22,969 nucleotides of DNA from a virus. The notes beneath the pieces were generated by a model. The model had not been told where the DNA came from, did not search any database, and saw only the letters and a list, made by a program, of their open reading frames with translations. Shown here in pieces: positions 10,057-15,645 of this stretch. Position numbers and translations under genes: made by a program. Position 1 is the stretch's first letter. Each line of letters opens with the position of its first letter. The DNA lies in IMG/VR virus record IMGVR_UViG_3300031857_001472, positions 1 through 22,969 of that record, one strand, 5' to 3'.

Positions 10057-10974
10057 TTAAAATGGTGTATTTATTTGTAGTCCGTTGAATGGTGTATCTA
10101 AGTATAATCGTTCTCCGTGATTCTCGTAATAGGCATTTTTGAACACATCAAAGGTAAGTCTTGCCGTTCCTTTCTCTCCTTCTGCTCTCTTCTTTATTTT
10201 CCTGACTATTATCTGAGCCTCACTTGACTGCCTCCAGCCTTCTCCGTGTTCTTCATAGTCTCGGTGAACGCAAATTAAGTTTAAAGCTTTTGCATACCAA
10301 ACACTACCGCCTTCAATCTCGTCAGGTCTTGGAGCTGGAGGGTACTTATCGCCTCCTCTCATATCAGGATTCCTTGCGTGAGCTACTATGAAATTATGAG
10401 TATTGTTTTTTCTTGCGTGTCTGTTGACTCTCGGCAGTTGTTGTTTAAGGTATTCGCTTATCGTATTGGTGTACTTGTGTTCTATATCGTTCCAATTGTC
10501 TACTGAGCTTGAGAAAATTCCGTAGTCTTTTATAGCCTCATCTGTAAGCTCCAGCCACTCATCAAAATCAAGTCCTTTCTCATCTACATCAATTACTTTA
10601 AAATAGTCAGTTACGAATGGCATTACGCTATAAAGCTCCTTTTCTGTTATTTGGTAGTTAATACTTCGTTTGTCAAAAGTTTTACCAGTCAAGCAGTGAA
10701 TTATCTCTGCGTATATTTCGTAAGCAGAACCAGTTTCAGGTGTATAGATTAAACACTTTTTATTGTGCCGAGTTGCAAGTGCGCATAGTGATTGAATTAA
10801 GAACTGAGATTTACCACTTGTCGGATGTCCGTAAATAATTGTTGACCTACCTTCTTTGATTGAATAGAGCTTATCCAAAGTAGGAAAGCCTATTTTTAAC
10901 CCAGCATTCTGTCCAAATTTATGGAGATGAAATATTTGTTCTTGTAGCTCGTTAGCTTGTATTATCTTTCCCAT
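10057..10974 (-). CDS. DnaB-like replicative helicase (RecA-fold ATPase)
   Basis: The start is the ATG at 10974 (MGKIIQANELQ); the longer reading begins at a TTG that overlaps the previous gene. The 305-residue protein keeps only the RecA-like core of replicative helicases. A lead-in LKIGFPTLDKLYSIKEG is followed by Walker A GHPTSGKS (49-56) and a Walker B-like strand GIFSSSVDNW (D159). Motif H3-like AHAR lies at about 198-201, and a late EIEGGSVWYAKALNLICVHR segment resembles the DNA-binding and arginine-finger region of DnaB and Twinkle. The usual DnaB N-terminal domain is absent, as in many small phage helicases. It lies next to the replisome-organiser-like gene, which probably loads it. 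Confidence 0.88.
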   Translation of the reverse strand: MGKIIQANELQEQIFHLHKFGQNAGLKIGFPTLDKLYSIKEGRSTIIYGHPTSGKSQFLIQSLCALATRHNKKCLIYTPETGSAYEIYAEIIHCLTGKTFDKRSINYQITEKELYSVMPFVTDYFKVIDVDEKGLDFDEWLELTDEAIKDYGIFSSSVDNWNDIEHKYTNTISEYLKQQLPRVNRHARKNNTHNFIVAHARNPDMRGGDKYPPAPRPDEIEGGSVWYAKALNLICVHRDYEEHGEGWRQSSEAQIIVRKIKKRAEGEKGTARLTFDVFKNAYYENHGERLYLDTPFNGLQINTPF

Positions 10975-10976
10975 AA

Positions 10977-11585
10977 TTACCAAATTACTTTAGATGGGTC
11001 AAAAGGTTTAGGCGCATTTTTTAGTACTGGTTTATCAATTCTTAGTATCCATCCAGCGACTGCGTGTTCTACTGACTTCATTTCATTTTTGCCTACCATC
11101 CAAAAATTAGATGAATAGTAGTTAAAGAATTTCTCAGCCTCTTTTAAAATAAATTCTCTATTCCATTCAGATTCTTTTTTAGAAATAAAAATAGATTGGA
11201 TATTCTCTATACTCTTATCTATTACATTTACATTAACATTAACATTAACAGCTTCGTTTGCTTCAGTTTGCTTCGTTATTGAAGCATTTGCTTCGTTTTG
11301 CTTCATTTTGCTTCGTCTTGCTTCACCACTTTTGATACCTCCTAATCTCCCTGAGTTAGAACGATTTGGCTTAATCTCGTTATTCCACTTTTCTAAATCT
11401 CTTTTAAGTTGTTGTTTAATTGGTTCAAATGTTAGCTCAATAATTAAATCATTTGCTACTGGGTTTTGGTCATTAACATAACGCAAAATGTGTTTAAATA
11501 ATTCACCAGCTTTTTCATTTGGCATCTTTTCCATTGTGTGTATCAAATCAGCATACAGCACAAAACTCTTTTTACCTTCTGCCAT
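10977..11585 (-). CDS. Replisome-organiser-like replication protein (DUF6291-like)
   Basis: This 202-residue protein has a conserved-looking N-terminal domain beginning KSFVLYADLIHTMEKMPNEK and continuing GELFKHILRYVND (about 6-65). A basic segment (RSNSGRLGGIKSGEARR, 75-91) follows, then a low-complexity linker (about 92-122) with a VNVNVNVNV stretch, and a C-terminal domain (about 130-202, ending PFDPSKVIW). The N-terminal part fits DUF6291, found in Bacteroidota phages beside helicases. The domain-linker-domain build and position directly before a DnaB-like helicase resemble initiators such as lambda O. The linker-coding DNA contains a 10-bp iteron array (11255-11324) and AT-rich hexamers (11221-11250), so the replication origin may lie inside this gene. 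The family name is from memory; the initiator role is inferred. Confidence 0.75.
   Translation of the reverse strand: MAEGKKSFVLYADLIHTMEKMPNEKAGELFKHILRYVNDQNPVANDLIIELTFEPIKQQLKRDLEKWNNEIKPNRSNSGRLGGIKSGEARRSKMKQNEANASITKQTEANEAVNVNVNVNVIDKSIENIQSIFISKKESEWNREFILKEAEKFFNYYSSNFWMVGKNEMKSVEHAVAGWILRIDKPVLKNAPKPFDPSKVIW
11221..11250 (-). repeat. AT-rich hexamer repeat (TTAATG) next to the iterons
   Basis: On the minus strand TTAATG recurs in tandem, with the last copies degenerating to TAAATG. It encodes the VNVNVNVNV linker. The period is a multiple of three, so it could be protein-driven. It directly adjoins the iteron array and is the most AT-rich, easily melted part, as expected of a DNA unwinding element. 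Confidence 0.7.
11255..11324 (-). repeat. 10-bp iteron array inside the replication gene (candidate origin)
   Basis: Reading the minus strand from 11324, seven consecutive 10-base units follow the form GAAGCAA(A/G)NN. Six begin exactly GAAGCAA. The fifth (11275-11284) has lost the 5' half but keeps the register. The period is 10 bases, not a multiple of 3, so the pattern cannot arise from simple codon repetition; the protein shows it only as a 10-residue superperiod (EAR... EAN... EAN). Spacing of about one helical turn puts every copy on the same DNA face, as in iterons bound by initiator proteins. Confidence 0.75.
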
Positions 11586-11823: not shown

Positions 11824-11888
11824 AAATAAAAAGCCGACCAACTAAAGATTCGCAAGGGTAAGGACCACCCAATCTTTAATCAATCGGC
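11824..11888 (-). terminator. Structured RNA element with terminator-like end
   Basis: On the minus strand an outer stem GCCGA/TCGGC (11884-11888 with 11833-11837) encloses an internal loop and a seven-pair stem AAAGATT/AATCTTT (11871-11877... with 11844-11850). A small GGGT/ACCC stem (11867-11870 with 11856-11859) closes the apex. The outer stem is followed at once by TTTTTATTT (11832-11824), so it can act as an intrinsic terminator or attenuator. The sequence lies in a 202-base gap without a gene (11789-11990), about 40 bases after a promoter-like motif. It could therefore be the 3' end of a small RNA or a regulatory leader for the replication genes. Confidence 0.6.
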
Positions 11889-12251: not shown

Positions 12252-12460
12252 AATTTTTCTATTTCTTGTTTAACTTGATTCCAGTATTCACATCGTTTTG
12301 CGTCTTGCGGATAGTGTTCTTTAATAATCTCATCTACTGCGATTAAAGCACATTGTTTGGCATTATTTACATTATCCATCCATCCATTTAATTCATCCCA
12401 ATCTTTTGTAAATGGAATAAATTTATCAATTAACTCGTTTGCTTTGTTTTCTGCTGTCAT
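12248..12460 (-). CDS. Small conserved phage protein, unknown function
   Basis: This 70-residue, helical, soluble protein has an N-terminal KANELIDKFIPF segment, a central AKQCALIAVDEIIKEHY helix (about 34-50) and an ending EYWNQVKQEIEKL. I have the impression of frequent Bacteroidota phage proteins with the same N-term, the KQCALI-VDEII motif and the W-x-x-V-K-x-E-I-x-x-L end, always of unknown function. Start and stop overlap neighbouring genes as ATGA. Confidence 0.75.
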   Translation of the reverse strand: MTAENKANELIDKFIPFTKDWDELNGWMDNVNNAKQCALIAVDEIIKEHYPQDAKRCEYWNQVKQEIEKL

Positions 12461-12849
12461 TTTATAAGGTGTTGATATTGGTTAAAAAGATTCATAAAGT
12501 ATTTATTTTTAACTTCAAGTTGTCCTTGCACATACTCTCTGCTGTGAATGATGGTTGAATGGTCCTTACCACCAAATACAAATCCGATTTCTTTAAGGCT
12601 ACCTGACTGGTTAGTATAGGCTATGTATCTACCGATGTGCTTTATCTCAATTAGTTCTCGTTTGCGACTCTTACCAGTTATGTCATTATAACTATAACCA
12701 CTAATTGTGCAAAGCTCGTAGATTAGATTCTCAATAGCATTCATATTGTCCTTGTCTTTTGAGTCTTGGATATATGCTGCCCATTCTGCAAGAGTATTGA
12801 ACTCGTATTTTTTTGCTAAGTGTTTTAAAAAAGGGTTGTCAAATTTCAT
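12457..12849 (-). CDS. Stand-alone DnaA domain IV-like protein
   Basis: This 130-residue protein carries the DNA-binding part of the chromosomal initiator DnaA without the AAA+ domain. Residues about 38-108 include SRKRELIEIKHIGRYIAYTN (61-80), SLKEIGFVFGGKDHSTIIHS (84-103) and a final helix. The GG-(K/R)-DH-(S/T)-T-I-x-H signature is the DnaA-box-recognition helix region of domain IV, and the R-K-R-x-L block matches the preceding helix. A short N-terminal segment (1-36) is unlike DnaA. Phages use such proteins for origin binding or to interfere with host DnaA; which applies here cannot be told. It overlaps the next gene by four bases. Confidence 0.85.
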   Translation of the reverse strand: MKFDNPFLKHLAKKYEFNTLAEWAAYIQDSKDKDNMNAIENLIYELCTISGYSYNDITGKSRKRELIEIKHIGRYIAYTNQSGSLKEIGFVFGGKDHSTIIHSREYVQGQLEVKNKYFMNLFNQYQHLIK

Positions 12850-14311: not shown

Positions 14312-14653
14312 TTAAGCCTTTTGATTTTTAACTCGTAAAGCGTCAACAGTCTCACCGAATGCTCTTACTTTTGCGCTGTAAATAATGATTGACTTTCCTA
14401 CCCAATGCTCAATAAAAGGAGTATCTAATACCTTAGTAATGATTTTAGCGTTGGTCTTGTTGATGATCATTCCTTTTTGCCCTCCTTTGAAGTAACAAAC
14501 GATACATTCCTGAGTACCTTCAGCAGTTTTTACTTGTTCTTTTTGGACTTTCTCAATAGTGAGCTTGAGTTCTTGGTTAGGTTGCAGGATTTCAGCTCCG
14601 ATATAGTTCGGATTTGTTAATCGTCTCCAGTGCGTTAATTCATTAGTTGCCAT
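14312..14653 (-). CDS. Conserved phage protein paired with the YqaJ-like nuclease
   Basis: This 113-residue, strand-rich, soluble protein starts MATNELTHWRRLTNPNYIG. It has a core ECIVCYFKGGQKGMIINKTN (49-68), a helix AKIITKVLDTPFIEHWVG and a final strand pair KSIIIYSAKVRAFGETVDAL. This family, which I recognise from position and pattern, is very common directly before exonuclease genes in phages of Bacteroidota, so a role in recombination or single-strand DNA handling is likely. An OB-like fold is only my reading of the strand pattern. Confidence 0.75.
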   Translation of the reverse strand: MATNELTHWRRLTNPNYIGAEILQPNQELKLTIEKVQKEQVKTAEGTQECIVCYFKGGQKGMIINKTNAKIITKVLDTPFIEHWVGKSIIIYSAKVRAFGETVDALRVKNQKA

Positions 14654-15320
14654 TGTGTTTAATTTTTGTTTTAAATTGTGGTTTTATAAAAGTGATTGAT
14701 AACAAATAATAATCATAGTCAACTATATCTGAATAATTATTTGATTTTTTAAAATTTTCTTCTTTACTAAGTATTTGTAAATTTTTATAATGTGAAACAA
14801 TATTAATTGGTGCATCAACTATGAACCAAGATACTGGTATTTTATGATCTAAATGCTCATTAGAATTAGGATATTTACCTAAATAATTTAATAATGTATT
14901 TTGATTATAACCTAATATGTTAAATGTTGAATCCTTTTTATTATTAACTAATCTATGTACAATTTTTCTCATATTTTTAATTAGTTTATAATTTAAATCA
15001 TTCGCATATCTATTCTTTTCATACACATTTTTTTTAAAATTAATTTTATCCTTGTTAAGTAAATTATACTGTCTATTATATTTTTTCTTTTCTTCAGAAT
15101 TATATCTTATTTTTTGTTTAATTAAAATATCATCTCGTTTTAATAAGTATCTTTCTTTTTGATATAATATTTTTTTATCTTTAATTCTGTTATAAATTGT
15201 TGAATAATATTCTGAACAACAAACTTTACATCTATAATTTAAACCATCAGAAGCTCTTGATAATTTACTATATTCTGAATAGTCTTTTTCAATTTTGCAT
15301 TTAGCACATATTTTTTTCAT
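14643..15320 (-). CDS. HNH endonuclease with N-terminal zinc ribbon (probable selfish insertion)
   Basis: I chose the ATG at 15320, which begins right at the zinc motif (MKKICAKCKIEKDYSEYSKL); an ATG at 15344 is possible and adds eight residues. The N-terminal part has two CxxC pairs (CAKC and CKVC, about 23 residues apart). A long lysine/asparagine/tyrosine-rich region follows. The C-terminal HNH site shows HLDHKIPVSWF and then the N-L-Q-I-L-S-K-E-E-N-x-K-K-S-N end. The gene is much richer in A and T than its neighbours and lies between two short conserved genes with a clear gap upstream. These features fit a free-standing homing-type endonuclease acquired separately. It overlaps the next gene start by 11 bases. 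Confidence 0.85.
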   Translation of the reverse strand: MKKICAKCKIEKDYSEYSKLSRASDGLNYRCKVCCSEYYSTIYNRIKDKKILYQKERYLLKRDDILIKQKIRYNSEEKKKYNRQYNLLNKDKINFKKNVYEKNRYANDLNYKLIKNMRKIVHRLVNNKKDSTFNILGYNQNTLLNYLGKYPNSNEHLDHKIPVSWFIVDAPINIVSHYKNLQILSKEENFKKSNNYSDIVDYDYYLLSITFIKPQFKTKIKHNGN

Positions 15321-15384
15321 ATTCAAATATAATAATTTTTCCAATTACTTTTTCCAATGTGTATAATTATTCCAATGGGTTAAA

Positions 15385-15645
15385 TTAGTTTCTGTTTGCA
15401 TAAAATTTTAAATTAGTGAATTTGTTAATTTCTGATTGAATACTGTCTAATAAGTCATTCTTTTGCTGCCAGTCTTGATGAGCCTGACCGAGTGCGATAT
15501 AGTCATCATCTGTGGCTTTCTTTGAATTGAGTTTTTTACGAATTGCGTTGTATGTTTTCCAAGCTAAAACTAAATCATTGGAGGCTGCTTGGTATCTGTA
15601 TCGCATTTCAAGCTTTTCAGGGTACTTAGATTTAAGTTCGGTCAT
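15385..15645 (-). CDS. Small coiled-coil phage protein, unknown function
   Basis: This 86-residue soluble protein is almost all helical: a basic N-term (MTELKSKYPEKLEMRYRYQ), VLAWKTYNAIRKKLNSKKAT, then ALGQAHQDWQQKNDLLDSIQ. It overlaps the upstream gene by 14 bases. The AT-rich gap 15345-15384 separates it from the HNH gene. I do not recognise a family. Confidence 0.7.
   Translation of the reverse strand: MTELKSKYPEKLEMRYRYQAASNDLVLAWKTYNAIRKKLNSKKATDDDYIALGQAHQDWQQKNDLLDSIQSEINKFTNLKFYANRN

Follow-up and report, generated by a model that had tools for sequence, protein, structure and literature searches.

In the lactococcal phages and in SPP1, origin sequences lie within or beside the gene of the initiator (replisome organiser), and the iterons of phage lambda are 18–19 bp long. 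The origin of lambda and its relatives, consisting of iterons and an AT-rich tract, is located in the middle of gene O, and two iterons together with the AT-rich region constitute the minimal fragment for unwinding in lambda-type origins (PMC7466680). In phage P27, silent recoding of the iterons abolishes plasmid replication (PMC7466680). Iteron plasmids, reviewed in PMC4980987, carry direct repeats to which an initiator encoded by the replicon binds, together with an AT-rich opening region.

A stretch of 22,969 nucleotides from a virus (IMG/VR record IMGVR_UViG_3300031857_001472), referred to here as the window, contains an array of short repeats inside a gene of DUF6291, a Pfam family without assigned function. 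As judged from the DNA and from comparison of relatives, this array very probably serves as the site of initiator binding in a replication origin that lies within the phage's own initiator gene. The locus comprises the following features:

11255–11324, minus strand: iteron array of seven 10-bp units, six of them GAAGCAANNN (sequence reading and pattern search; register kept in relatives)
11281–11294, read on the plus strand: central palindrome GAAGCATTTGCTTC (GAAGCA-AA-TGCTTC), formed by unit 4 and the inverted unit 5 (sequence; inverted pairs of the same core in relatives)
11251–11255, minus strand: partial eighth unit GAAGC, 9 bp further on (sequence, Tandem Repeats Finder)
11224–11250, minus strand: AT-rich 6-bp array (TTAATG)3 TAAATG, encoding VNVNVNVN, a candidate DNA-unwinding element (Tandem Repeats Finder, pattern search, codon choice in relatives, IMG/VR scans)
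10977–11585, minus strand: candidate initiator gene, 202 amino acids, Pfam DUF6291 (PF19808) (Pfam E 6e-21; C-terminal matches of relatives)
11397–11585, minus strand: conserved N-terminal helical domain, residues 1–63 (AlphaFold2 pLDDT 92)
11328–11396, minus strand: candidate DNA-reading segment, residues 64–86 (..RSNSGRLGGIKS), the type of which predicts the iteron core in relatives (comparison of relatives)
10980–11213, minus strand: C-terminal domain, approximately residues 125–202, swapped among relatives with the same N-domain and iterons (comparison of relatives)
10057–10983, minus strand: replicative ATPase, DnaB-C/primase-helicase-like, the downstream neighbour (profile match)

The initial annotation likened this layout to that of lambda, an apt comparison in that iterons and an AT-rich tract lie in the (candidate) initiator gene (PMC7466680). 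The origins of lambda, P27 and 933W in gene O resemble the locus in their iterons and adjoining AT-rich tract inside the initiator gene, in the adjacent helicase-loading gene and in a unit number that varies between relatives (PMC7466680). The window contains iterons in the candidate initiator coding sequence, an adjoining AT-rich tract with a candidate unwinding role and a helicase-like gene next door, but neither 18–19-bp iterons (the period is 10 bp) nor homology to O; the C-terminal parts of some relatives match O-like PHROGs. In contrast to the lambda origin, the iterons are 10 bp long with 7-bp cores, one unit in the middle of the array is inverted, the AT-rich element is itself a phased 6-bp array and the initiator belongs to DUF6291 instead of O. 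The initiators of the lactococcal phages and SPP1 likewise belong to families other than DUF6291. Plasmid iterons are usually longer and located outside the rep gene. Direct repeats and an AT-rich region are common to the window layout and to iteron plasmids. With its unrelated initiator family, 10-bp iterons and apparently exchangeable recognition segment, the element is lambda-like in anatomy and distinct from a lambda O origin. The literature searched contained no mention of DUF6291, and the part of it devoted to embedded phage origins does not describe a system of this type; coverage of subscription journals was thin, most of them lying outside it, and an earlier description is possible.

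On the minus strand, positions 11255–11324 read GAAGCAAGAC GAAGCAAAAT GAAGCAAAAC GAAGCAAATG CTTCAATAAC GAAGCAAACT GAAGCAAACG. The 5' ends of GAAGCAA lie at 11324, 11314, 11304, 11294, 11274 and 11264 on this strand, all in 10-bp register. The pattern GAAGCAAN3GAAGCAA occurs four times in the window against an expected 0.02, and none of 100 shuffles reached four; Tandem Repeats Finder reports a period of 10 with 7.6 copies at 11251–11325. The array sits in the linker of the minus-strand ORF 10977–11585, directly before the RecA/DnaB-C-like gene 10057–10983. Seven units in register, six of them starting with GAAGCAA, and their place in the linker ahead of the helicase gene had all been read correctly in the initial annotation, which had missed the 6-bp array and the fifth unit (CTTCAATAAC), an inverted copy that forms a 14-bp palindrome with unit 4. 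For DnaA boxes, the window contains a single TTATNCACA, which equals chance expectation.

Directly after the partial eighth iteron follow the four 6-bp units TTAATG TTAATG TTAATG TAAATG, so that 11224–11250 reads TTAATGTTAATGTTAATGTAAATG; GTWAATGTWAATG occurs three times in the window, with 0.02 expected. When IMG/VR was scanned by the 6-bp array alone, without the protein, using the patterns (GTWAAT)4 and (GATAGT)4, at least 172 viral ORF sites were found, and 140 among the matches listed fit the DUF6291 profile. Five of the ORFs that did not match the profile were tested in Pfam, and four scored above the DUF6291 cut-off, the other being weak. Since scans by array, and not by protein, led mostly to DUF6291 genes, the 6-bp array is strongly tied to this family.

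Altogether, more than 200 related genes were compared, including 64 loci from an IMG/VR scan and 14 further loci from GTDB genomes, the latter all in Bacteroidota. INPHARED contributed relatives in phages of Flavobacterium, Cellulophaga and Olleya, together with more remote ones in Vibrio and further phages. PF19808 is rare in bacterial genomes, as only 4 of 395 genomes of the phylum contain a match. In nearly all relatives the linker carries a short-repeat array followed by an alternating-codon array, and the number of iteron units varies. The phages elemoA, tooticki6-1, 11b, phi19:3 and Harreka_1, which belong to Flavobacterium, Cellulophaga and Olleya, share the N-domain, the linker array and the 6-bp array with the window but differ from it in their iteron cores and C-terminal domains; Harreka_1 is of the CAAC type and elemoA of the TCGC type. 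L064, a distant relative, has 16 linker copies of the core CGCGA on both strands, far above the others. In L083, a DUF6291 gene in a Cytophagaceae MAG, the frame is broken within the first iterons, which reflects either a sequencing error or a decayed prophage. L073 (Vibrio phage 1.155.O) and L112 carry initiator-like genes in which the N-domain is another one (DUF4373/Lin1244) and short linker repeats precede an AT-rich array with a 5-bp period. A search with Lin1244_N beyond DUF6291 produced few readable cases; by eye, L112 looks alike, with CAAC-type repeats before its 5-bp AT-rich array.

Both arrays are under selection at the DNA level. Repeated 4-mers at a distance of 9–11 bp average 16.8 per gene, compared with 6.2 in synonymous shuffles (61 genes), and the excess reaches p<0.05 in 48 of the 61 genes, with 13 above p=0.05. 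Among 11 close relatives, silent codon changes at invariant residues are found at 2 of 17 positions in the iterons and at 36 of 53 in the N-domain, and variable positions amount to 2 of 42 in the cores versus 11 of 28 in the 3-bp spacers (p=0.0004). The core types found in relatives are AGCAA, TCGC, CAAC, AACCC and ATGC, and the distance from one core to the next is mostly 10, 20 or 30 bp. The spacing is exactly 10 bp in 67 of about 101 cases in the AGCAA class and in 54 of 90 in the TCGC class, while the other classes provide fewer counts and more scatter. Arms of inverted pairs average 5.4 against 2.5 in synonymous shuffles and exceed the null mean in 64 of 75 genes. The palindromes use the core of their own class (GAAGCA/TGCTTC, TAGCA/TGCTA, GAACCA/TGGTTC, AACCCA/TGGGTT, TCAACA/TGTTGA), and both arms vary in concert among relatives. 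In the alternating-codon array of relatives, codon choice differs from that elsewhere, with Ser AGT at 82% versus 19%, Asp GAT at 100% versus 73% and Gly GGT at 81% versus 36%.

The comparison of homologous genes proposed initially came out as anticipated, with the 10-base register kept, silent changes located in spacers and not in cores, and a variable unit number. The opposite pattern, in which the protein linker is kept and the register lost, is absent in most genes; 13 of 61 fall short of p<0.05 in the shuffles. These data also bear on the idea that the repeats merely reflect a low-complexity protein linker, which could be derived from the predicted disorder of residues 87–124 in the full-length model and from the free variation of the linker. 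The iteron units, however, occupy all three reading frames of the DUF6291 gene, and the synonymous shuffles, the silent-site constraint and the codon choice contradict this idea as well, making it very improbable. Codon repetition as the source of the 10-base period, already ruled out in the initial annotation, is rejected because the units lie in three frames and protein-preserving shuffles fail to reproduce the repeats. The presence of a palindrome could likewise point to a structured RNA that regulates translation. An RNA structure at the array was rejected, as the predicted fold is weaker than that of shuffled sequences (z +1.4), there is no Rfam match and a 10-bp DNA phase is meaningless for RNA; this explanation is exceedingly improbable.

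The protein encoded by the window scores 74.8 bits against DUF6291 (PF19808), above the gathering score of 27.2, and in Pfam it has no match to Phage_rep_O. AlphaFold2 predicts three helices in its N-terminal part, at residues 12–20, 23–37 and 47–99, of which the last is a long helix running through the specificity segment. A PDB fold search with the N-domain returned no significant match, and the proposed DNA binding therefore draws no support from structure. Links to replication are found in relatives. In L191, DUF6291 is fused to a DnaB_2 replication-initiation domain, and the C-terminal parts of other relatives match PHROGs for replication initiation, O-like proteins, DnaD-like helicase loaders, replisome organizers and primosomal proteins. 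The named relatives are annotated as hypothetical or 'replication protein' only, and the gene next door encodes a helicase, a primase-helicase or a DnaC-like protein.

The first 66 residues were considered as the determinant of the iteron core and rejected, because in whole-matrix comparisons both N-domain (residues 1–66) and C-domain similarity correlate weakly with iteron similarity (partial 0.13 and 0.23, respectively). It is the following segment that predicts the core. Across 75 genes, GGxK is paired with AGCAA in 25 of 26 cases, GNLKRW with TCGCA in 19 of 22, SAxxRK with CAAC in 14 of 14, GGRP with AACCC in 7 of 7 and KRW with ATGC in 5 of 5. As these classes had been defined by inspecting part of the 75-gene data, they were applied to held-out loci found only via the 6-bp array, from which genes close to the earlier set or to each other had been removed. 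The core was predicted correctly in 60 of 74 held-out genes (shuffled labels: mean 21.7, maximum 35), a set in which the label 'non-DUF6291' is unreliable, most of the five such proteins tested being DUF6291 in Pfam. For the clustered set as a whole, the prediction was right in 115 of 130 cases (null mean 29.8, maximum 47), the genes in these samples not being phylogenetically independent. Among the exceptions are a subtype, GGRPKKQ, paired with AAAGCAAA and a further type, GGAPKGN, paired with AACAACC.

The clearest natural switch is seen in L086 and L088, which have closely related N-domains (support 98) and differ in both segment and core. A tree of the N-domain (63 columns) contains two to three supported pairs for each class, almost all of them concordant and without an opposed case, but it is poorly resolved, and independent co-switching therefore falls short of formal significance. 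Since the segment adjoins the iterons, block inheritance could explain part of the link. DUF6291 initiators may possess an exchangeable DNA-reading segment (approximately residues 64–95) with a simple code, in which GGxK would read AGCAA, GNLKRW TCGC, SAExRK CAAC, GGRP AACC(C) and KRW ATGC. Because the target would lie in the gene itself, directly behind the part that encodes the reading segment, specificity, array and unwinding element would travel between phages as a single cassette. We consider the chances of this proposal to be evenly balanced.

Natural domain swaps are located at the array. L003 and L016 share the C-terminal domain and differ in N-domain and iterons, while L004 and L021, as well as L018 and L023, share N-domain and iterons and differ in the C-terminal domain. 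Such swaps would be expected if the arrays served mainly as recombination junctions for the exchange of initiator domains, with the origin role being secondary, but they may simply follow from the location of the origin. A role as junction also leaves the 10-bp register, the palindromes and the link between core and segment unexplained, and there is very little probability that it is the main one.

In the origin reading, the 10-bp iterons would be occupied by several DUF6291 protein molecules lined up on one face of the DNA helix. Contact would be made by the basic segment in which the long N-terminal helix ends, and the central inverted pair may nucleate or orient the complex. The resulting strain would open the adjoining AT-rich 6-bp array, after which the C-terminal domain would bring in a helicase or primase from the neighbouring gene, here the DnaB-C-like gene 10057–10983. 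The register, the position of silent changes in the spacers and the lambda-like layout agree with the origin proposed in the initial annotation; binding by the protein and use as an active origin are what we infer. GC skew, suggested as a check, gave no clear support. Across the window there is no switch at the array at 11.2 kb, and in tooticki6-1 the skew minimum lies 4.7 kb from the array. In the complete relative Harreka_1 it lies about 200 bp away, a position confounded by a nearby switch in gene strand.

If the same DUF6291 protein bound the array as an operator, or as a centromere-like site for partition, and not as an origin, the array would look alike. In plasmids, iteron arrays serve in copy control and partition too. 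Together with the partition-type iteron array reported for phage B83 (PMC6669507), this offers a precedent for a partition role. However, the codon-selected AT-rich array, the neighbouring helicase gene and the initiation domains in the C-terminal parts of relatives fit an origin better, and no ParA/ParM-like gene is found among the annotated genes near the inspected relatives, where most genes are hypothetical. An operator or partition function is accordingly unlikely. With the array as an origin, DUF6291 would gain a likely function as an origin-binding initiator, and origins could be located by a sequence rule in many phages of Bacteroidota, among them several isolates. The link between segment and core offers a possible DNA-recognition code for a phage initiator family, one that lends itself to direct testing.

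Further elements were observed elsewhere in the window. The minus-strand gene 12457–12849 encodes a small protein with a DnaA C-terminal DNA-binding domain, and phi19:3 and tooticki6-1 have similar genes close to their DUF6291 gene, Harreka_1 at another place in its genome. The GC content drops to 0.24 at 14501–15500, compared with about 0.35 around it; this region spans ORF 14643–15344, which by eye resembles an HNH-type endonuclease, and is possibly a recent insertion. An imperfect hairpin at 11833–11888 (minus strand), in an intergenic region upstream of the initiator gene, is conserved and has a T-run behind it. No Rfam family matches it above the gathering threshold, and in eight relatives 3 of its 22 pairs are changed on both sides; it may be a terminator or a phage RNA element without an earlier description.
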